62,604 nt of DNA, from NCBI GenBank assembly GCA_937129385.1, contig CAKZNC010000019.1, positions 1-62,604 of the forward strand, written 5' to 3'. Both the position numbers and the translations under genes were made by a program. Under the pieces are notes generated by a model that worked only from the letters and a program-made list of their open reading frames with translations, searched no databases and had not been told where the DNA came from. Positions 24,930 through 34,547 of the stretch are shown piece after piece. Origin of the DNA: an uncultured Bacteroidota bacterium (GTDB lineage: Bacteria; Bacteroidota; Bacteroidia; Bacteroidales; GCA-2748055). Every line of letters starts with the position of its first letter. Within the stretch, counting starts at the first letter, position 1.

Positions 24930-27239
24930 ATGATTGAGAATTTAGTTATTGTTGAGTCTCCTGCCAAGGCAAGAACCATTGAAAGGTTCCTTGGCAAGGA
25001 TTTCGTGGTTAAATCCAGTTTCGGGCATGTCAGGGACCTGGCAAAAAAGAACCTGGGTATTGATATTGAAAAGAATTTCAGGCCTGACTACGTTGTCTCT
25101 CCTGACAAAAAAAAGGTTGTGAAGGAGTTGAAGGATCTGGCCGGAAAGGCAAAGACCGTCTGGATCGCATCTGATGAGGACCGCGAGGGAGAGGCCATTG
25201 CCTGGCACCTGGAGGAGGTGCTGAACCTGGACAGCGAAAAAACAAAGCGTATTGTTTTCCATGAGATCACGAAGGATGCCATTCAACACGCCATCGAAAA
25301 CCCCCGTAAGATTGACAAAAACCTTGTGAATGCACAGCAGGCCAGGCGTGTGCTGGACCGCCTGGTCGGTTTCGAACTGTCTCCGCTGCTATGGAAGAAG
25401 GTCAAACCTTCACTTTCGGCCGGACGTGTCCAGAGTGTGGCCGTAAAGCTTATCGTTGAGCGGGAAAGGGAGGTCAATACCTTCGAATCGAAAAGCTATT
25501 ACAGGGTCACAGCAATTTTCAATGCGCCTGATGGGAATCAGGAGGTGAAGGCTGACCTGTCAAAACGTTTCGAAACCATTGAAGAGACCAGGGCGTTCCT
25601 TGAAAAATGCATGTCGGCCGACTTCCGGATCACCTCCGTAGAGAAGAAACCCGGGAAAAAATCACCCGCTCCGCCCTTTACAACCTCCACACTGCAGCAG
25701 GAGGCAAGCCGGAAACTGGGATACTCTGTATCACAAACCATGACCCTGGCTCAGCGACTTTACGAATCGGGTCTGATCACCTATATGAGAACCGATAGTG
25801 TAAATCTCTCAAACCTTGCCATCTCCACAGCCGCATCTGAGATCAAGGAGGCTTTCGGGGAAAAATACCACCAGGTAAGAAAATATGCCACCAAATCGAA
25901 AGGTGCCCAGGAGGCCCATGAAGCGATCAGGCCTACCTACATCAGCAACCGGTCAATCGACGGAGACGGACGTGAGCAGCGACTGTATGAACTGATCTGG
26001 AAGCGTACCGTCGCCTCGCAGATGAGCGATGCCAGGCTCGAGCGAACAACGGTGAAGATCGATATCTCCAATGCAGACGAGCATTTTGTGGCCAATGGAG
26101 AGATCCTGGTCTTCGATGGTTTTCTGAAATTGTACATCGAATCGACCGATGACGAAAAAGAGGAAGAGACCAGCAGCCTGCTGCCCCCCCTGAAACAGGA
26201 TGATATGCTCACCTACAAGCGGATCGGGGCCATGCAGAAGTTTACAATGCCGCCGGCCAGGTATACTGAAGCAAGTCTGGTTAAAAAACTCGAGGAGCTG
26301 GGGATCGGCAGACCCTCCACCTATGCCCCCACCATTTCGACGATCCAAAACAGGGACTACGTGGTCAAAGAGACGCGACAGGGCAAAAAGCGGGAAATTA
26401 CCAATGTAACACTGAAAGAGGGTGAGATCACATCTAAAAAAGAAACCGAGTCATTCGGAAATGAGAAGCAGAAACTGTTTCCAACCGATATCGGAATGGT
26501 TGTGAATGACTTCCTGGAACAGTATTTTGTCAATATCATGAACTACAATTTCACGGCCGACGTGGAAAAGAAGTTCGATTCCATCGCAATGGGAAATGAG
26601 GATTGGACCAAGATGATCGATTCCTTCTATGACCCCTTTCATAAAAAGGTGGAACAGACCATGGAAACTTCTGAGAAATCAAAAGGGGAAAGGCTTCTGG
26701 GAGAGGATCCTGAAACCGGAAAACCCATTACTGTGAAGATAGGACGGTTTGGACCGATGGTTCAGATCGGGGAGGCAGAAGACGAGGAAAAACCAAGGTT
26801 TGCAAGCCTGTTGAAAGGCCAGGGAATGGAAACGATCACACTGGAGGAGGCGCTGGAGCTGTTTAAACTGCCAAGGACACTTGGAAAATTCGAGGATGAG
26901 GATGTCACAGTGGCCATCGGAAGGTATGGACCCTATGTCAGGCACAATAACAAATTTGTTTCGCTCCAGGAAGAAGACGATCCGCATACCGTCTCCCTGG
27001 ACAGGGCCATTGAACTGATCCAGGCCAAGCGGCAGGAAGAGAAGAACAGGATCATCAGGGAATTCGATGAAAAGCCCGGCTTGCAGGTGCTGAACGGCCG
27101 GTATGGTCCCTATATCACCTATGAGAAGAAAAACTACAAGATCCCGAAAAGCAAGAAACCCGAAGAGTTGTCGCTGGAGGATTGCCTGGAGATCATAGAA
27201 AAGACACCAGACAAACCCTCCCGCCGGAGGAAAAAATAA
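24930..27239 (+). CDS. topA: DNA topoisomerase I (type IA)
   Basis: Relaxes negative supercoils through a transient 5'-phosphotyrosine link. The 769-aa protein has a TOPRIM domain at the start (VIVESPAKART; acidic cluster in IASDEDREGEAIAW) and the active-site Tyr285 in GLITYMRTDSVNLS. The C-terminus has no C4 zinc fingers. It carries at least three topoisomerase C-terminal repeats of the G-R-[FY]-G-P form (IGRFGPMVQIG, IGRYGPYVRHN, NGRYGPYITYEKKNYK) and a basic tail (SRRRKK). This zinc-free repeat tail is common in Bacteroidota. The arginase-fold gene follows after 11 bases. Confidence 0.96.
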   Translation: MIENLVIVESPAKARTIERFLGKDFVVKSSFGHVRDLAKKNLGIDIEKNFRPDYVVSPDKKKVVKELKDLAGKAKTVWIASDEDREGEAIAWHLEEVLNLDSEKTKRIVFHEITKDAIQHAIENPRKIDKNLVNAQQARRVLDRLVGFELSPLLWKKVKPSLSAGRVQSVAVKLIVEREREVNTFESKSYYRVTAIFNAPDGNQEVKADLSKRFETIEETRAFLEKCMSADFRITSVEKKPGKKSPAPPFTTSTLQQEASRKLGYSVSQTMTLAQRLYESGLITYMRTDSVNLSNLAISTAASEIKEAFGEKYHQVRKYATKSKGAQEAHEAIRPTYISNRSIDGDGREQRLYELIWKRTVASQMSDARLERTTVKIDISNADEHFVANGEILVFDGFLKLYIESTDDEKEEETSSLLPPLKQDDMLTYKRIGAMQKFTMPPARYTEASLVKKLEELGIGRPSTYAPTISTIQNRDYVVKETRQGKKREITNVTLKEGEITSKKETESFGNEKQKLFPTDIGMVVNDFLEQYFVNIMNYNFTADVEKKFDSIAMGNEDWTKMIDSFYDPFHKKVEQTMETSEKSKGERLLGEDPETGKPITVKIGRFGPMVQIGEAEDEEKPRFASLLKGQGMETITLEEALELFKLPRTLGKFEDEDVTVAIGRYGPYVRHNNKFVSLQEEDDPHTVSLDRAIELIQAKRQEEKNRIIREFDEKPGLQVLNGRYGPYITYEKKNYKIPKSKKPEELSLEDCLEIIEKTPDKPSRRRKK

Positions 27240-27250
27240 ACCTTGTCAAC

Positions 27251-28420
27251 ATGGACCTCAATGGATATTTCGACCCGGTAAGCCTCGAGAAGCCTCAATT
27301 TCACCTGCTGCCCGAAAAGTATTCTTTCAGCAGGAACATTGCCATCCATACACCCGACCGGCCGATCCGGGAGCTGGACCAGTACCAGCTGGCACTGATC
27401 GGAGTACCGCAGGACCATTCAGCATACATCAAAGGAAGCGCAACTGCACCCGACAAGGTAAGGGGCATGCTCTATCAGCTGCGTAAATGCAACCGCAATG
27501 TGAAGGTCTATGACCTGGGGAACCTGAAGACCACGAAGAATGTCGGCGATACATATTACGCGATCCGCGACATTACCCTGGAACTCTCCGAACTTGGGGT
27601 GATCCCGTTCTTTATTGGCGGTTCGCAGGACCTGACCTTCGGGATAATCCTGGCACTGGAAAAATTGCCGGGCATCCGGCAGATCCTGACCATTGACCCG
27701 AGATTTGATTTCTGGCTTGAAAAGGAGCCCGGCATCCATTCACGCAATTATCTCAACTATATCCTGGATAAAAAGGTGAAGCGACAATTTACCTATTCCA
27801 ACCTTGGACACCAGCAATATTTTGTCACTGAGCACCAGCTCGATGTGCTGGAACGGGAATTCATGGAAAGCATCAGGCTTGGGGAACTGCGGGAAAACAT
27901 CAGGAGGGCAGAACCGCTGATCAGGGATGCCGACATGGTGAGCATCGACATGAATGCGATGCGGCATTCAGATGCATCCGGGGTGACCAACCCCTCTCCG
28001 AACGGACTTTTCGGAGATGAACTGTGTGCACTGACCAGGTATGGTGGGATCAGCGAAAAGGTAAAGGTCGCAGGATTGTTCGAACTTTCTCCGGAAAGAG
28101 ACCTGAATGACCAGACCAGCCACCTGGCGGCCCAGGCCATCTGGTATTTTATAGACGGACTTTCACATCGTATCAGGGAAAATCCGATGGAAACATCGGC
28201 GCACACCAAGAAATTTATCCTTAAACCGGAGGAGATTGACCAGGAGCTCGTATTCTACAAAAGTAACGTCTCTGAACGGTGGTGGGTAGAGGTCCCTGTG
28301 AAAAATCCTGCCACAAATGATAACTATTTTATCTCATGTTCGTATGAAGAATACCAGGGAGCTTGCAAAAATGTCATTCCAGATCGCTGGTGGCGTTACT
28401 TGCATCGCCTTGGAGACTGA
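27251..28420 (+). CDS. Arginase/formimidoylglutamase-fold protein lacking metal ligands (likely pseudoenzyme)
   Basis: A 389-aa protein with the ureohydrolase fold order: LIGVPQDHSAYIKG, IPFFIGGSQDLTFG, ILTIDPRFDFW, MVSIDMNAM and GLFELSPERD. The manganese ligands are not conserved. GGDH has become GGSQ (123-126), DAHxD has become DPRFD (149-153), and DxDxxDP has become DMNAMRH from Asp233. It is thus unlikely to hydrolyse guanidino substrates by the known mechanism. Residues after about 310 form a C-terminal extension with SERWWVEVP and PDRWWRYLH. I start it at the ATG at 27251; an upstream frame overlaps topA. It sits between topA and the porP-gld operon, which suggests but does not prove a secretion or motility link. 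Confidence 0.85.
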   Translation: MDLNGYFDPVSLEKPQFHLLPEKYSFSRNIAIHTPDRPIRELDQYQLALIGVPQDHSAYIKGSATAPDKVRGMLYQLRKCNRNVKVYDLGNLKTTKNVGDTYYAIRDITLELSELGVIPFFIGGSQDLTFGIILALEKLPGIRQILTIDPRFDFWLEKEPGIHSRNYLNYILDKKVKRQFTYSNLGHQQYFVTEHQLDVLEREFMESIRLGELRENIRRAEPLIRDADMVSIDMNAMRHSDASGVTNPSPNGLFGDELCALTRYGGISEKVKVAGLFELSPERDLNDQTSHLAAQAIWYFIDGLSHRIRENPMETSAHTKKFILKPEEIDQELVFYKSNVSERWWVEVPVKNPATNDNYFISCSYEEYQGACKNVIPDRWWRYLHRLGD

Positions 28421-28460: not shown

Positions 28461-28486
28461 CCCGGGATGAGTCCGGGATTTGTTTT
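28461..28486 (+). terminator. Weak terminator-like hairpin after the arginase-fold gene
   Basis: CCCGG (28461-28465) and CCGGG (28473-28477) form a 5-base stem with a 7-base loop, followed by ATTTGTTTT. The stem is short, so termination would be partial at best. Confidence 0.35.
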
Positions 28487-28615: not shown

Positions 28616-29569
28616 ATGAAAAAACTGGCGGGCATCATATTTTTAATGGTCATTGCAATCAAGCTTATGGCACAAGAAGATCCGAAACTGAGTCAGCGGA
28701 TGTTCCTGCTCCCCTTATACAACCCGGGAGCCGTGGGACAATCGGACAAGGTATGCGCCTCGGCAGCATTCAGGAACCAGTGGGGAGGACTCCCCGGGGC
28801 GCCTGTGGTTTCTACCTTCAGCGCGCACATGCCATTCAACCTGTTCGGACGCTCTCATGGTGCCGGGATCAATTTTGTCAATGACAATATCGCCCTTAGC
28901 AATCAATTGTTCGTGAACCTTGCCTACTCCTTCAAGACCGATATCGGGGGCGGTGTGCTCGGCACCGGGATCAATGCCGGTATGGGAAACCTCGCTTTTG
29001 ATCCGGAAGGACTGGTGGGTGCAGATGTGATGGACCAGCAGGGAGATCTGTTAATTCCACAGGTGGCGGACAGCAGGTTTGGCCTGGATGTTGGGATTGG
29101 AGCCTATTACTCGACAGAGAGGCTTTACTTCGGCCTTTCTGCCATGCACCTGGGTGGACCGAAATGGAACTTCAGTTCTGAAGACGAAACCGGAGATGCC
29201 GCCATAACAATGAACTCCACCTATTATGCCATCGGAGGTTATACCATTCAGCTTCCAAATCCAACCCTGGAACTGATGCCTGTATTTATGGTACAAACCG
29301 ATCTGAAATCACACCATTTTTATCTGAATACAAATCTCAGATACAATAAAAGATTCTGGGGAGGAGTTTCATACTCAGTGGGGGGTGCTGTCAGCATCCT
29401 TGCCGGAATTGAGCTTTTGAATGGAATAAAAGTCGGGTATTCATATGATATCGAGATGTCGCGACTCTTAAAATACAGCAGTGGTTCTCATGAGATCACC
29501 GTTCGATATTGCTTCGATCTTAGTCTGGACAAGACCCCGCAAAAATATGAAAGCATTAGATTTTTATAA
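28616..29569 (+). CDS. porP: PorP/SprF family type IX secretion outer-membrane protein
   Basis: A 317-aa beta-barrel protein of the PorP/SprF family. From the ATG at 28616 there is a signal peptide ending IAIKLMAQ. The family motif follows: PKLSQRMFLLPLYNPGAVGQ, then FRNQWGGLPGAPV. Alternating beta strands and a C-terminal VRYCFDL fit an outer-membrane barrel of about 12-14 strands. PorP is part of the T9SS, and in SprF form it acts with SprB-type adhesins. It is the first gene of the porP-gldK-gldL-gldM-gldN series, the same order as porPKLMN of Porphyromonas. An in-frame extension to 28535 lacks a signal peptide and is rejected. Confidence 0.92.
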   Translation: MKKLAGIIFLMVIAIKLMAQEDPKLSQRMFLLPLYNPGAVGQSDKVCASAAFRNQWGGLPGAPVVSTFSAHMPFNLFGRSHGAGINFVNDNIALSNQLFVNLAYSFKTDIGGGVLGTGINAGMGNLAFDPEGLVGADVMDQQGDLLIPQVADSRFGLDVGIGAYYSTERLYFGLSAMHLGGPKWNFSSEDETGDAAITMNSTYYAIGGYTIQLPNPTLELMPVFMVQTDLKSHHFYLNTNLRYNKRFWGGVSYSVGGAVSILAGIELLNGIKVGYSYDIEMSRLLKYSSGSHEITVRYCFDLSLDKTPQKYESIRFL

Positions 29570-29646
29570 TTATTTACTATATTTAAATTGTTTTTTATAA
29601 CTTGAACAACTTGAAGACAGAGAGTTATTGCATAAACACCCAAGCC

Positions 29647-31074
29647 ATGAAAAGAGTACTTATTTTGGTATTACTGGTAGCAGTACTAGGAAGTTGTAGC
29701 AATTACAACACAGGAGAACTTACAGGAGTACCGGGACGAAAAGCCTACATTGAACCAGATCCCTACGGGATGTTGTTCATTCCAACCGGATCATTTACAA
29801 TGGGGCCCAGCGACCAGGATGTCGCGTGGACACAGAATGCGATGGCAAGAACAGTGTCTGTTGATGCATTCTGGATGGATGAAACTGAAATTACCAACAA
29901 TGAATACAGGCAATATGTATTCTGGGTGCGTGATTCGATCATTCGCAAATATCTTGCTGTAAACGGACAGGAGGATTTTCTGTATAAAGATCAGAACGAC
30001 CAGGTGGTAAACGACCGGTTCGGTCAGCCAAGGATCAACTGGGAGACCCCGATGGATGTGATTAACAAGGACAAAGAGGGCAACCTGAAGACCATGGTCT
30101 ACGGTGATCCCTCCAATCCGGATGACAACGGTATGGGGATCTATTATTCCGGTGTTGACCAGCTGTCACCCCGCGGAAGGGAACTCGATGTGACCAAGCT
30201 GATCTATAATTATTACTGGGTGGACCTTCACCAGGCCGCGAAAAGTGCCAACAGGATGCAGCTTGACTATAGTGGCGGAACGGCCGATCCCACTGTTAGA
30301 TACGGCAAAGATGGCAATACTGCAAAGGTCATCAGGCCCGACGGTACACAGGAAGATATCACCAGCCGCGGTTCATTCGTTCATAAAGACTGGGTGCTGG
30401 TATATCCCGATACACTTTGCTGGATCGCCGACTTTACATACTCATACAACGAGCCCATGGCGACCATGTATTTCTGGCACCCCTCCTATGACAACTACCC
30501 TGTGGTGGGCGTCAACTGGAAGCAGGCCAATGCTTTCTGCATCTGGCGTACCAATTACCTGAATGATGCACTGGCAAAACAGGGCCTTCCGCTGGTTCAG
30601 AACTACAGGCTCCCCATCGAGGCTGAATGGGAATTCGCAGCAAGGGGAAACCTCGACCACAGTATGTATCCATGGGGTGGTGTATACCTCAGGAACAAGC
30701 TCGGGTGCTTTGTAGCCAATTTCAAGCCACTCAGGGGAAATTACATCGATGACGGAGCCCTCGCAACAGAACGGGTCGCCTCATTTGCCGCCAATGAATA
30801 TGGATTATATGACATGGCCGGGAACGTTGCTGAATGGACCATCAATGCTTATGATCCCTCAGCTTATGTATTCTCTGCAACACTGAACCCCAATTATAAA
30901 TACAACGCACAGCCAAATGATCCGCCCGTAATGAAAAGAAAGGTGATCAGGGGAGGATCCTGGAAGGATGTTGCCCGCTATCTTCAGGTAAGTGTGCGTG
31001 ATTACGAATACCAGGACACTGCCAAATCCTACATCGGATTCCGTTGTGTACGTTCATATTTAGGTACTAATTAA
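29647..31074 (+). CDS. gldK: GldK/PorK, T9SS outer-membrane ring lipoprotein
   Basis: A 475-aa lipoprotein with the lipobox VLGSC, Cys17. It has a formylglycine-generating-enzyme-like (sulfatase-modifying factor) fold: IPTGSFTMGPSDQD, DETEITNNEYRQYV, YRLPIEAEWEFAARG, LYDMAGNVAEWT, VIRGGSWKD and YIGFRCVRS. GldK/PorK forms a periplasmic ring with GldN/PorN under the outer membrane. The fold is used structurally and is not a sulfatase activator here. I start it at the ATG at 29647; the frame upstream lacks a signal. gldL follows 11 bases later. Confidence 0.96.
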   Translation: MKRVLILVLLVAVLGSCSNYNTGELTGVPGRKAYIEPDPYGMLFIPTGSFTMGPSDQDVAWTQNAMARTVSVDAFWMDETEITNNEYRQYVFWVRDSIIRKYLAVNGQEDFLYKDQNDQVVNDRFGQPRINWETPMDVINKDKEGNLKTMVYGDPSNPDDNGMGIYYSGVDQLSPRGRELDVTKLIYNYYWVDLHQAAKSANRMQLDYSGGTADPTVRYGKDGNTAKVIRPDGTQEDITSRGSFVHKDWVLVYPDTLCWIADFTYSYNEPMATMYFWHPSYDNYPVVGVNWKQANAFCIWRTNYLNDALAKQGLPLVQNYRLPIEAEWEFAARGNLDHSMYPWGGVYLRNKLGCFVANFKPLRGNYIDDGALATERVASFAANEYGLYDMAGNVAEWTINAYDPSAYVFSATLNPNYKYNAQPNDPPVMKRKVIRGGSWKDVARYLQVSVRDYEYQDTAKSYIGFRCVRSYLGTN

Positions 31075-31085
31075 TTTGAATTGAT

Positions 31086-32048
31086 ATGGGAATTACAGAA
31101 ATCGTTCAAAGTTCGGGCTGGAAATCATTTACGGCAAAACTTTATGGTTTCGGTGCATCCATCGTGATCATCGGAGCATTGTTCAAGATTCAGCACTGGC
31201 CAGGTGCAAGTATCGCACTCACAAGCGGGTTGCTGATTGAAGCAGTCATCTTCTTCTTCTCAGCTTTTGAACCCCTGCATGAAGAACTCGACTGGACCCT
31301 GGTATATCCGGAACTTGCCGGTATGTCAGATCCCGATGAGATCGATGAATACAAGGAAGAGGCGCTGGCAGGTAGAAATGTGGGTCTGCAGAAGTTCGAT
31401 GAACTGATCAAGGAATCCCAGATCAGTGAAGCCGATGTAAAAAAACTCGGGCAGAGCATCACTTCGATCTCTTCGAGTTCCGAATCTATTGCAGATATTA
31501 CAGCAGCCTCACTCGCTACAAAAGAGTATTTCGACAAAATGGGCAACGCTGCCAGCAACATGGACCAGGTAGCCACTGCCTATGGGACGAATACAGGAAC
31601 ACTGAATCAGCAGGTGGAAACACTGGCCGAATCATACAAAAAGACTTCCCAGCTTATCGACGATAAAGGAAAAGAGGTTGCTGAAAGATTTGCAGCCTCC
31701 AGTGCCAACCTCACCGCAGCTTATGAAGCCATGTCCGGAGAGGTGAAACAGGAACATACGCAGATCTCGGAAAGTCAGAAAAAATTCCAGGGACAACTTG
31801 AAGCGCTCAGTAGTAGTCTGGCTGAACTGAATACTACCTATACAGAACAGGCGCAGGGAAGCAAAGAGCACATGAAAGGTACTGCCGATGTCTATAAAGG
31901 ACTCAATGAAATGGTGAACAGCCTGAAAGTATCTGTTGATGAAACTCAGAAGTACAAGGACGAGATCACAAGACTAAGCGAAAGTCTCTCCGAGCTGAAC
32001 AACATTTATGGATCAATGCTTTCAGCAATGAGTATCAGGAAAAAGTAA
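31086..32048 (+). CDS. gldL: GldL/PorL, inner-membrane T9SS and gliding motor stator
   Basis: A 320-aa protein with two adjacent transmembrane helices at about 18-34 and 41-60 and a long cytoplasmic alpha-helical tail. It contains the motif GALFKIQHWPGA between the helices. Glu52 in the second helix (LLIEAVIFFF) matches the glutamate reported as essential for proton use by GldL of Flavobacterium johnsoniae (E49 there). Together with GldM it forms the proton-driven rotary motor of type IX secretion and gliding. The tail is Gln/Ser/Lys-rich and coiled-coil-like. Confidence 0.96.
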   Translation: MGITEIVQSSGWKSFTAKLYGFGASIVIIGALFKIQHWPGASIALTSGLLIEAVIFFFSAFEPLHEELDWTLVYPELAGMSDPDEIDEYKEEALAGRNVGLQKFDELIKESQISEADVKKLGQSITSISSSSESIADITAASLATKEYFDKMGNAASNMDQVATAYGTNTGTLNQQVETLAESYKKTSQLIDDKGKEVAERFAASSANLTAAYEAMSGEVKQEHTQISESQKKFQGQLEALSSSLAELNTTYTEQAQGSKEHMKGTADVYKGLNEMVNSLKVSVDETQKYKDEITRLSESLSELNNIYGSMLSAMSIRKK

Positions 32049-32076
32049 ATAATTAAATTGTTTTAATCCATTTCGC

Positions 32077-33645
32077 ATGGGACACGGTAAGGAAACCCCC
32101 AGACAAAAGATGATCGGGATGATGTATTTGGTGCTGACAGCCATGTTGGCACTGAATGTATCAAAGGATGTACTCGATGCATTCGTAATTGTCAATGATG
32201 GACTGAACGAGACAACTGAGAATTTCTATTCAAAGAATGAAGGACTCTATTCCAAAATAGATTTTGAATACGACCAGAATCCGGCAAAGGCCGGGGAATG
32301 GAAAGAAAAATCAGATGAAGTTCAGCAGTTATCCGATGAGCTTTATGAATTTATCAATGAATGCAAGGTCCAGATTGTTGAGAAAAATGATCCGGAAGCC
32401 ATTGTTGACGGGGAAGTTGAACTGAGCGAAGTAAATAAAAAGGATGACACGGATACACCGGCCGAGGTGATGATCGTCAATAAAAAAGGTCAAGAATTGA
32501 AGGAGATGATCAATAACTACAGGGAGGAGATGATCGGGATGATCCATAACCCTGAAGATTATAATAAATTGATCGAAGCCATTGAGGGTAACCTTGACAC
32601 CCATGACCACCCTGCAGAAAAAGCCGGAGAACCAGATCATCCCTGGGAAAGTCATAATTTTGAACATCTTCCCCTTGCTTCTGTGATCACCATTCTTTCC
32701 AAGATGCAGGCAGACGTAAGAAACGTGGAATCAGACATGATCAGTTACCTGCTTGAACAGGTGGGCGCCAAGGATTTTAAAGTAAACGTTCTGGAGGCCA
32801 TCGTCCTGCCAAACTCAAATGTAGTGTTCAAAGGACAGGAATACCGTGCGCAGGTATTCCTTGCAGCCTATGATTCCACCAAGATCCCACGTGTACTGCT
32901 AAGCTCCGGGGACTCCCTTTCTGTCGAAGGTGGAAAAGGTATTTTTACCGCTACATCCAATACAGCAGGTGAGAGAACATGGGGAGGTGTGCTGACACTC
33001 GACAATGATGGCCAGGAGATCAGGAGGGAATTCGAAGCCTCATATCGCGTTACACAGGCAAATGCCGTAATCTCGCCCACGAAAATGAATGTGTTTTACA
33101 GGGGCGTTGACAACCCGGTATCCATCTCCGCATCAGGAGTGACCGAAAGCGCTGTAAGCCCGGCCATCTCTGCCGGTAAGATCCGGAAAGTGTCCTCCGG
33201 GAATTACATCGTACAACCCGGTCCACGAGAATCTTCCAGCAAGATCAGCGTGTATGCCGACGTGGAGGGCAAAAGGAGCTTCATGGGTGACATGACCTTC
33301 AGGGTAAAGAACCTGCCCGACCCGACAGCTGTTGTTGAAGGCCTGCCAAAGGGCTCCGGCACAATGACACTCAGTAGCCTGACCAGGCTGCAGAAGGTCG
33401 AGGCGATCGCCGAAGACTTCCTGTTCGAGGTTGACTTTACCGTTACCGGTTTTAAAGTGAATGTTGTTGGATCAGGAGGTATTAACCTGATCGAAGAGGC
33501 CAATGGTGAAAACTTCACCTCCGCGCAGAAGCAGATCTTCAGGGGAATGAGAGCCGGGCAAAGGGTCTATATTGAAGATATTGAAGCCATCGGTCCTGAT
33601 GGAGTAAAACGTGCACTGAACAGTATAATAATTAAAATTAGATAG
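32077..33645 (+). CDS. gldM: GldM/PorM, periplasm-spanning T9SS motor shaft
   Basis: A 522-aa protein with one N-terminal membrane helix (MMYLVLTAMLALNVSKDVL), preceded by the conserved GKETPRQKMIG. The periplasmic part begins with a long helical D1 domain and continues as beta-rich domains, ending ALNSIIIKIR. GldM dimers insert between GldL helices and reach up to the GldK-GldN ring, passing rotation to the outer membrane. It ends at 33645, and the gldN start lies within 2 bases, so translation is coupled. Confidence 0.96.
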   Translation: MGHGKETPRQKMIGMMYLVLTAMLALNVSKDVLDAFVIVNDGLNETTENFYSKNEGLYSKIDFEYDQNPAKAGEWKEKSDEVQQLSDELYEFINECKVQIVEKNDPEAIVDGEVELSEVNKKDDTDTPAEVMIVNKKGQELKEMINNYREEMIGMIHNPEDYNKLIEAIEGNLDTHDHPAEKAGEPDHPWESHNFEHLPLASVITILSKMQADVRNVESDMISYLLEQVGAKDFKVNVLEAIVLPNSNVVFKGQEYRAQVFLAAYDSTKIPRVLLSSGDSLSVEGGKGIFTATSNTAGERTWGGVLTLDNDGQEIRREFEASYRVTQANAVISPTKMNVFYRGVDNPVSISASGVTESAVSPAISAGKIRKVSSGNYIVQPGPRESSSKISVYADVEGKRSFMGDMTFRVKNLPDPTAVVEGLPKGSGTMTLSSLTRLQKVEAIAEDFLFEVDFTVTGFKVNVVGSGGINLIEEANGENFTSAQKQIFRGMRAGQRVYIEDIEAIGPDGVKRALNSIIIKIR

Positions 33646-33647
33646 TG

Positions 33648-34547
33648 ATGAAGATAGCCAAGTATCTGTTAATTACAGTTGTTTCAGCAGGTTTGTCGGT
33701 AGTTGTGTACGCACAACAACCTACTGCCAGCATTTCACAGGGCGGACCTGGAACTGCAGCTGCAATGAATGCAGAAATACCGGAGGATGTCTATACAAGG
33801 GAAAATATCATCCCCAATAAGAAGCCCATCCCCTATCCCTATCTCAGGGAAGCGGATGTGATGTGGTCAAAAGATCTCTGGAGGATCATCGATCTCAGGC
33901 AAAGAATGAACTATCCCCTGAGATATCCGGAAATAGAACCAATTGAGCACAGGTACAGCCTTTACCAGCTGCTTCTCGAAGGAATCCGCTCCGGTGAGAT
34001 CATGCCCTATGGCTACAACGAATTCAACAACCCCTTCAGTGAACCCACTTCACTGAAAGAGGTATATAAGGCCATTGAAGCTGATACCATCTTTGGTGAC
34101 AACGGCGAAGTTCACCAGGTCAATATCAATGGTAATTTGGTGAAAGGTTTTTATGTCAGGGAGAAATGGTACTTTGATAAACAACACTCGGAAATGAGGG
34201 TCAGGATCACCGCACTTGCTCCATTGATCATCAAACCGAAATATGACCCGCAGACAGGAATGCAACTTCCGGGATTTGACAAGATCATTCCATTCTTTGT
34301 CTATTTTCCCGAGTGCAGGAACCTGCTCGCAACACATTCGGTATTTAACCCGAATAATGATGCACAGAACATCTCGTTTGATGACCTGTTCATCCAACGG
34401 AGGTTTGCCAGCACCATTGCGGCAGAATCGAACGAATTCGGTAACAGGTTCATTGTTGACTATGTAACCGGACAGGATGCGCTCATGGAGGCTGAAAGAA
34501 TTAAAAACGAGCTCTTTATCATGGAGCACGACCTCTGGGAATACTAG
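33648..34547 (+). CDS. gldN: GldN/PorN, T9SS periplasmic ring protein
   Basis: A 299-aa exported protein. The signal peptide (MKIAKYLLITVVSAGLSVVV, then YAQ) precedes the family opening DVYTRENIIPNKKPIPYPYLREADVMWSKD. It partners GldK/PorK in the ring around the secretion channel. The ATG at 33648 is preferred; a GTG directly before it overlaps the gldM stop codon. It is last gene of the operon, with a strong intrinsic terminator 20 bases downstream. Confidence 0.96.
   Translation: MKIAKYLLITVVSAGLSVVVYAQQPTASISQGGPGTAAAMNAEIPEDVYTRENIIPNKKPIPYPYLREADVMWSKDLWRIIDLRQRMNYPLRYPEIEPIEHRYSLYQLLLEGIRSGEIMPYGYNEFNNPFSEPTSLKEVYKAIEADTIFGDNGEVHQVNINGNLVKGFYVREKWYFDKQHSEMRVRITALAPLIIKPKYDPQTGMQLPGFDKIIPFFVYFPECRNLLATHSVFNPNNDAQNISFDDLFIQRRFASTIAAESNEFGNRFIVDYVTGQDALMEAERIKNELFIMEHDLWEY

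Follow-up and report, generated by a model that had tools for sequence, protein, structure and literature searches.

The window analysed here is a whole stretch of 62,604 nucleotides of DNA from an uncultured bacterium of the Bacteroidota. Between topA and the core operon of the type IX secretion system (T9SS) it carries an intact, stop-free open reading frame with an ATG start, hereafter the pseudoenzyme gene (Table 1). In the downstream operon, porK, porL, porM and porN are the counterparts of gldK, gldL, gldM and gldN. No hut genes were found beside the pseudoenzyme gene in the window, its flanks being topA and the por genes.

Table 1. Coordinates of the locus and of the motifs and domain encoded within it
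Feature	Position	Strand	Evidence and remarks
topA, DNA topoisomerase I	24930..27239	+	TIGR01051, 720 bits; 11 nt upstream of the pseudoenzyme gene
Arginase-fold pseudoenzyme gene	27251..28420	+	389 aa; ORF and translation, Pfam, AlphaFold2, Foldseek
GGSQ (canonical GGDH), residues 123-126	27617..27628	+	Sequence; Gln in place of the MnA His ligand
DPRFD (canonical DAHxD), residues 149-153	27695..27709	+	Sequence; both Asp kept, MnB His replaced by Arg
DMNAMRH (canonical DxDxxDP), residues 233-239	27947..27967	+	Sequence; first Asp kept, second replaced by Asn
C-terminal domain, ~85 residues (about 306-389)	28166..28417	+	Beta sheet and two helices (predicted); RWW...C...Y...P.RWW
Terminator-like hairpin with T-rich tail, gap between the pseudoenzyme gene and porP	28461..28477	+	Pattern scan; weak evidence
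T9SS core operon porP-porK-porL-porM-porN	28616..34547	+	TIGR03519, TIGR03525, TIGR03513, TIGR03517, TIGR03523, all over cut-off

The product is a true arginase-fold protein, as a first, sequence-only reading of this DNA had proposed. It matched nearly the full Pfam Arginase profile (PF00491) with 90.3 bits (E 1.9e-25) against a cut-off of 22 bits, which places it in the arginase/ureohydrolase superfamily. The AlphaFold2 (AF2) model of the full-length protein had a pLDDT of 85.3 and a pTM of 0.89, and its top PDB match in Foldseek was the formimidoylglutamase 3m1r (E 9.6e-19), with TMt reaching 0.82 among the Foldseek matches; this B. subtilis enzyme is also the best solved relative by sequence. 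The closest curated model was hutG (TIGR01227), with a score of 93.3 bits, below the equivalog cut-off of 229.15. As the best scores go to formimidoylglutamase models, homologues are liable to be named accordingly, and such misnaming would lead to wrong predictions of histidine or arginine metabolism for a very common bacterial class. The sequence shows no hydrophobic signal segment at its N-terminus, and for this reason a cytoplasmic site of action is expected.

Loss of metal ligands across the class

The three metal-binding motifs read exactly as had been reported from sequence (Table 1). Ligand positions were assigned to H101, D124, H126, D128, D232 and D234 of human arginase-1, a numbering that we take to apply here. 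In that order the ligand string H-D-H-D-D-D becomes Q-D-R-D-D-N. Thus D149, D153 and D233 correspond to the kept ligands D124, D128 and D232, whereas H101, H126 and D234 are replaced by Q, R and N, so that three of the six ligands that mark a catalytic ureohydrolase or HutG (GGxH, DxHxD, DxD) remain. The MnA site is short of one of its four ligands and the MnB site of two of four. The earlier claim that every manganese site was lost therefore holds in that both sites are broken, but it goes too far in that they are not erased: three Asp ligands persist, and these could hold a single metal. We also considered whether the conserved R or K at residue 238, where the DP motif has its D, replaces the metals by a salt bridge, and rejected this idea because intact six-ligand relatives already have R there (DxDxVRSSDA).

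The six ligand columns were then read in 192 non-identical family members from across Bacteroidia. Three ligands were retained in 127 of these and four in 27, and none had five or more. The H101 column holds Q in 126, H in 27 and N in 14 proteins (167 together). His is found at the H126 position in only 6 of the 192, its replacements being variable (R, K, M, T, L, Q and others), and the D234 position is S, G, N, A or T in 171 and Asp in 8. The positions of D124, D128 and D232 are Asp in 175, 156 and 171 proteins, respectively, with about 10-20% of family members additionally lacking one Asp ligand. The sole homologue with both H126 and D234 (L089; ligands RNHDSD) has lost the bridging Asp residues. 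The altered motifs are likewise kept in homologues lying between topA and porP, so that the refuting case named in the sequence-only reading, canonical ligands at this locus, did not arise, and its claim of an arginase-fold pseudoenzyme gains support from the whole set of 192. The altered ligand state is thus class-wide in Bacteroidia and not a local oddity.

With H126 and D234 gone the second metal is lost, and a third ligand is missing as well, which makes ureohydrolase chemistry improbable; from these residues we consider the protein very probably non-catalytic. An enzyme of changed chemistry, that is, a mononuclear-metal or metal-free hydrolase or lyase working on the kept Asp triad, appears unlikely. 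The frequent retention of the three Asp residues and of Q, H or N at the H101 position agrees with such an enzyme, as does the active arginase of Zymomonas (zmARG), which has Cys in place of the H101 His (PMC6988801). However, the two residues that make the second metal site are gone, the variable replacements at H126 disfavour a conserved new active site there, and a part of the family also lacks one of the Asp residues.

The gene itself is widely maintained. A match was found in 79 of 100 related genomes, including one weak paralogue (G070), and by profile search in 190 of 197 genomes of the class, a few of these matches being weak. Against two scorable relatives dN/dS was about 0.06-0.07, with dS near saturation, a value similar to those of PorP and PorK; the gene is under strong purifying selection. 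This selection, together with the class-wide state of 192 proteins, argues that the altered motifs did not arise by chance. A decaying pseudogene or an assembly artefact, which the degraded catalytic motifs might suggest, is ruled out for practical purposes by conservation: the frame is open in about 200 species, dN/dS is about 0.07, and new invariant residues have been gained.

Two further groups were noted. In one subgroup (L148, L149, L151, L152, L153) nearly all ligands are gone (e.g. NSISND) and the RWW motif is absent; its members are still arginase-like, and their genomes are T9SS-positive. A second odd arginase-family clade, from other families of the class (L247, L248, L249, L251, L252, L253), retains GGGHNN (GGAHTG in L253) and DAHxDF/Y, with no clear DxDxxD motif in the usual place. 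Judged by these motifs, it may be a further altered group or may act on a different substrate.

Origin and the C-terminal domain

A tree of 44 members of the pseudoenzyme family and 26 further proteins of the arginase family from the phylum was built by a short search with SH-aLRT support and no bootstrap, and one branch split the 44 from the 26 (SH-aLRT 100). The nearest intact relatives (L158-L161) belong to other classes of Bacteroidota and have complete or nearly complete ligands; hutI adjoins two of them (L159, L160) and lies within 4 kb of the other two (L158, L161). Given this setting in or near hut loci, the most likely ancestor of the family is a formimidoylglutamase of the HutG type. 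The family would have arisen once, at or near the base of the class, and on its founding branch the binuclear Mn site would have been broken (His126 and Asp234 are missing from nearly all members) and an additional C-terminal domain gained. One family member (L196, 6905-9512) sits just upstream of hutI (imidazolonepropionase), a setting shared with the intact HutG relatives, and is perhaps a relic of the ancestral histidine-utilisation locus.

The Trp-rich C-terminal extension described from sequence is real; it spans about residues 306-389 and carries two RWW motifs. The canonical relatives L158-L161 are without it. Modelled alone, the domain reached a pLDDT of 88 in AF2. It had no match above cut-off in Pfam and none at E<=0.001 among PDB folds (Foldseek), so that the family has a domain of its own with no known relatives. 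Ten columns of the domain were invariant across 11 sequences, and its near-invariant residues are F335, S338, R343-W344-W345, C363, Y368 and P377. The arginase body has also acquired conserved residues (R209, G211, E221-P222, R225, N251, C259, W298) that are mostly missing from intact relatives. Among the 44 tree members E221, P222, W298, F335 and C363 are conserved in 100%, and R225 and W344/W345 in 98%.

Neighbouring genes and co-occurrence with the T9SS

Neighbours were surveyed at 191 family loci, those cut by contig ends being counted as without the neighbour. topA lay directly upstream in 123, porP or porK directly downstream in 106, and both in 100. The order topA - pseudoenzyme - gldK occurs in many families of the class (e.g. 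f78), well beyond the order to which the window belongs. The two gaps are very different. That between topA and the pseudoenzyme gene had a median of 13 nt and was at most 30 nt in 85 of 123 loci, whereas that between the pseudoenzyme gene and por had a median of 173 nt and was at most 30 nt in only 1 of 106; gap medians within the por operon were 22 to 82 nt. The Bacteroidota -33/-7 promoter motif was found in 22 of 104 pseudoenzyme-por gaps against 4.8 expected from base-composition shuffles. The short gap on one side and the long, motif-enriched gap on the other suggest that the pseudoenzyme gene is probably expressed in one transcription unit with topA and that por has a promoter of its own. 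An intrinsic terminator after the pseudoenzyme gene was considered, but we do not rely on it: the region of the candidate hairpin folds no better than shuffles (z -0.27), and a strict terminator scan over the 104 gaps found none. The description of the gene as next to the T9SS operon therefore makes the link seem tighter than it is, since the gene is packed against topA and its transcription looks separable from that of por.

These gaps and the bipartite promoter-like motif would suit a role associated with topA, in topoisomerase I function or in DNA or transcription physiology, with por a mere neighbour by ancestral synteny. We regard such a role as rather unlikely. topA is general in bacteria, yet the pseudoenzyme has been lost in some lineages, including each of the four class-draw genomes that have neither it nor GldL, and in 56 loci it is away from topA too. 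At these 56 of the 191 loci, some of them cut by contig ends, it is linked to neither topA nor por. The commonest neighbour there is a divergent NAD-dependent epimerase (HpnA-like SDR), head to head with the gene in 14 of the 56 (L095, L096, L098, L102, L106, L109-L112, L141, L218, L221, L225, L228). In one genome (L165) topA is followed directly by porK, the pseudoenzyme and porP genes both being missing from the block.

GldL served as the marker of the T9SS; genomes were counted manually, leaving out weak paralogue hits. In the class draw 187 genomes had the pseudoenzyme and GldL, 5 GldL only, 1 the pseudoenzyme only and 4 neither (Fisher p 1e-5). Corresponding numbers were 78, 17, 0 and 5 in the draw of relatives, and 97, 5, 1 and 3 in the class part of the phylum draw. 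The p-values overstate independence because the three draws overlap and because genomes without GldL are scarce, some of them being related to one another or incomplete. This scarcity and relatedness also mean that only a few independent losses underlie the co-occurrence. In the single pseudoenzyme-only genome of the class draw (G535) the contig ends right after the gene, and its por genes are probably unassembled. One other genome (G445) has the pseudoenzyme with no GldL detected.

The converse case is more frequent. The pseudoenzyme is absent from 17 of 95 GldL-positive relatives and from 5 of 192 in the class draw, some of these possibly being incomplete assemblies. In all, about 20 T9SS-positive genomes lack it; the locus was read for most of them, and there other genes precede porP or porK. 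It is thus not present wherever the T9SS is, as a component would be, and the T9SS does not need it. The T9SS connection drawn earlier fits the co-occurrence with GldL and is weakened by these absences and by G445. A T9SS role is plausible, although unproven, and would be dispensable.

Nevertheless, once the P. gingivalis-like and T9SS-poor groups are set aside, most of the sampled Bacteroidia have this gene as a conserved neighbour of the T9SS core. PorK of P. gingivalis matches best those loci that are without the pseudoenzyme, and this absence would explain how the gene has escaped notice in studies of P. gingivalis. In a ppGpp-null mutant of P. gingivalis, PGN_1678 is upregulated together with the por genes (PMC6994654). 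It was dropped as a possible counterpart, as the PorK-closest loci lack the pseudoenzyme and have other proteins upstream of porP.

Possible function and comparison with known systems

The protein kept three carboxylates and the GG loop and gained a tail domain and new residues, a combination that fits a binding protein. We tentatively read it as an ancient, non-catalytic, cytoplasmic binding or regulatory pseudoenzyme of HutG-like origin with a client connected to the T9SS, a full statement that we hold as possible rather than established. Its ligand or partner would be held by the carboxylates of the old pocket or by the new conserved residues, candidates being R209-L-G, E221-P-x-x-R225, C259, W298, RWW, C363 and Y368. 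The client would most likely be tied to the neighbouring T9SS/gliding machinery, for instance at the cytoplasmic side of PorL/GldL. In a more specific version, which we think distinctly unlikely, the old metal pocket would bind a cationic metabolite instead of manganese and the C-terminal domain would report it to the T9SS/gliding motor. A cytoplasmic amino-acid- or amine-derived signal might in this way be coupled to the motor, e.g. via the cytoplasmic part of PorL/GldL.

The protein might instead belong to a heteromeric hydrolase as its inactive chain. In metformin hydrolase, activity depends on MetCb, an arginase-family partner that carries no metal (PMC11271267), chains of this enzyme are among the folds nearest to the AF2 model (8x3g_C, Foldseek E 2.7e-18), and the genome of the window has one other, intact arginase-family gene. 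This agmatinase-like gene (L001, G000:C193:6501-7265; motifs GGEH, DAHAD, DLDVFDP) sits on another contig, whereas the MetCa and MetCb genes are paired. Moreover, the pseudoenzyme was the only Pfam arginase hit in 9 of 33 genomes with such a hit (G004, G012, G044, G055, G063, G090, G098, G198, G360). With no second protein of this family in these nine, a general need for an arginase-fold partner is excluded, and a heteromer with an active arginase was rejected as the general role. We consider a subunit of this kind very improbable, and return to the binding or regulatory protein as the reading that we prefer.

A search of a limited set of literature found no description of the gene in a T9SS, gliding or pseudoenzyme context. 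Pseudo-ureohydrolases are already known; that set contained no account of a class-wide family of single origin that combines a C-terminal domain of its own with synteny to topA and the T9SS. Precedents for arginase-fold pseudoenzymes are MetCb (PMC11271267) and TbARG of Trypanosoma brucei, an arginase-like protein that evolved without the binuclear Mn cluster, according to the passages that cite it (PMC11271267, PMC5602898). So far as those passages describe it, TbARG resembles the present family in lacking this cluster, and it differs in being eukaryotic. We know of no C-terminal domain or topA/T9SS synteny in TbARG.

The pseudoenzyme gene shares the genomic block of porP, porK, porL, porM and porN and co-occurs with GldL. 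In contrast to their products, however, its protein is without homology to them and without a signal segment, is probably encoded in a separate transcription unit, and is dispensable in many T9SS lineages. HutG (3m1r, 4mxr; TIGR01227) is alike in fold and domain order and gives the best match in sequence and structure, and the nearest intact relatives of the pseudoenzyme lie in or near hut loci. The pseudoenzyme differs from it in lacking three of the six metal ligands, in its added C-terminal domain, in scoring far below the curated cut-off and in the lack of adjoining hut genes in the window. MetCb/MfmB (8x3g, 8ryi, 8snf) is likewise an arginase-family pseudoenzyme unable to bind the metal pair, and its fold is close. 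MetCb works with an active paralogue, whereas many genomes with the present pseudoenzyme have no other arginase-family protein, and the family described here is class-wide and carries a tail domain of its own.
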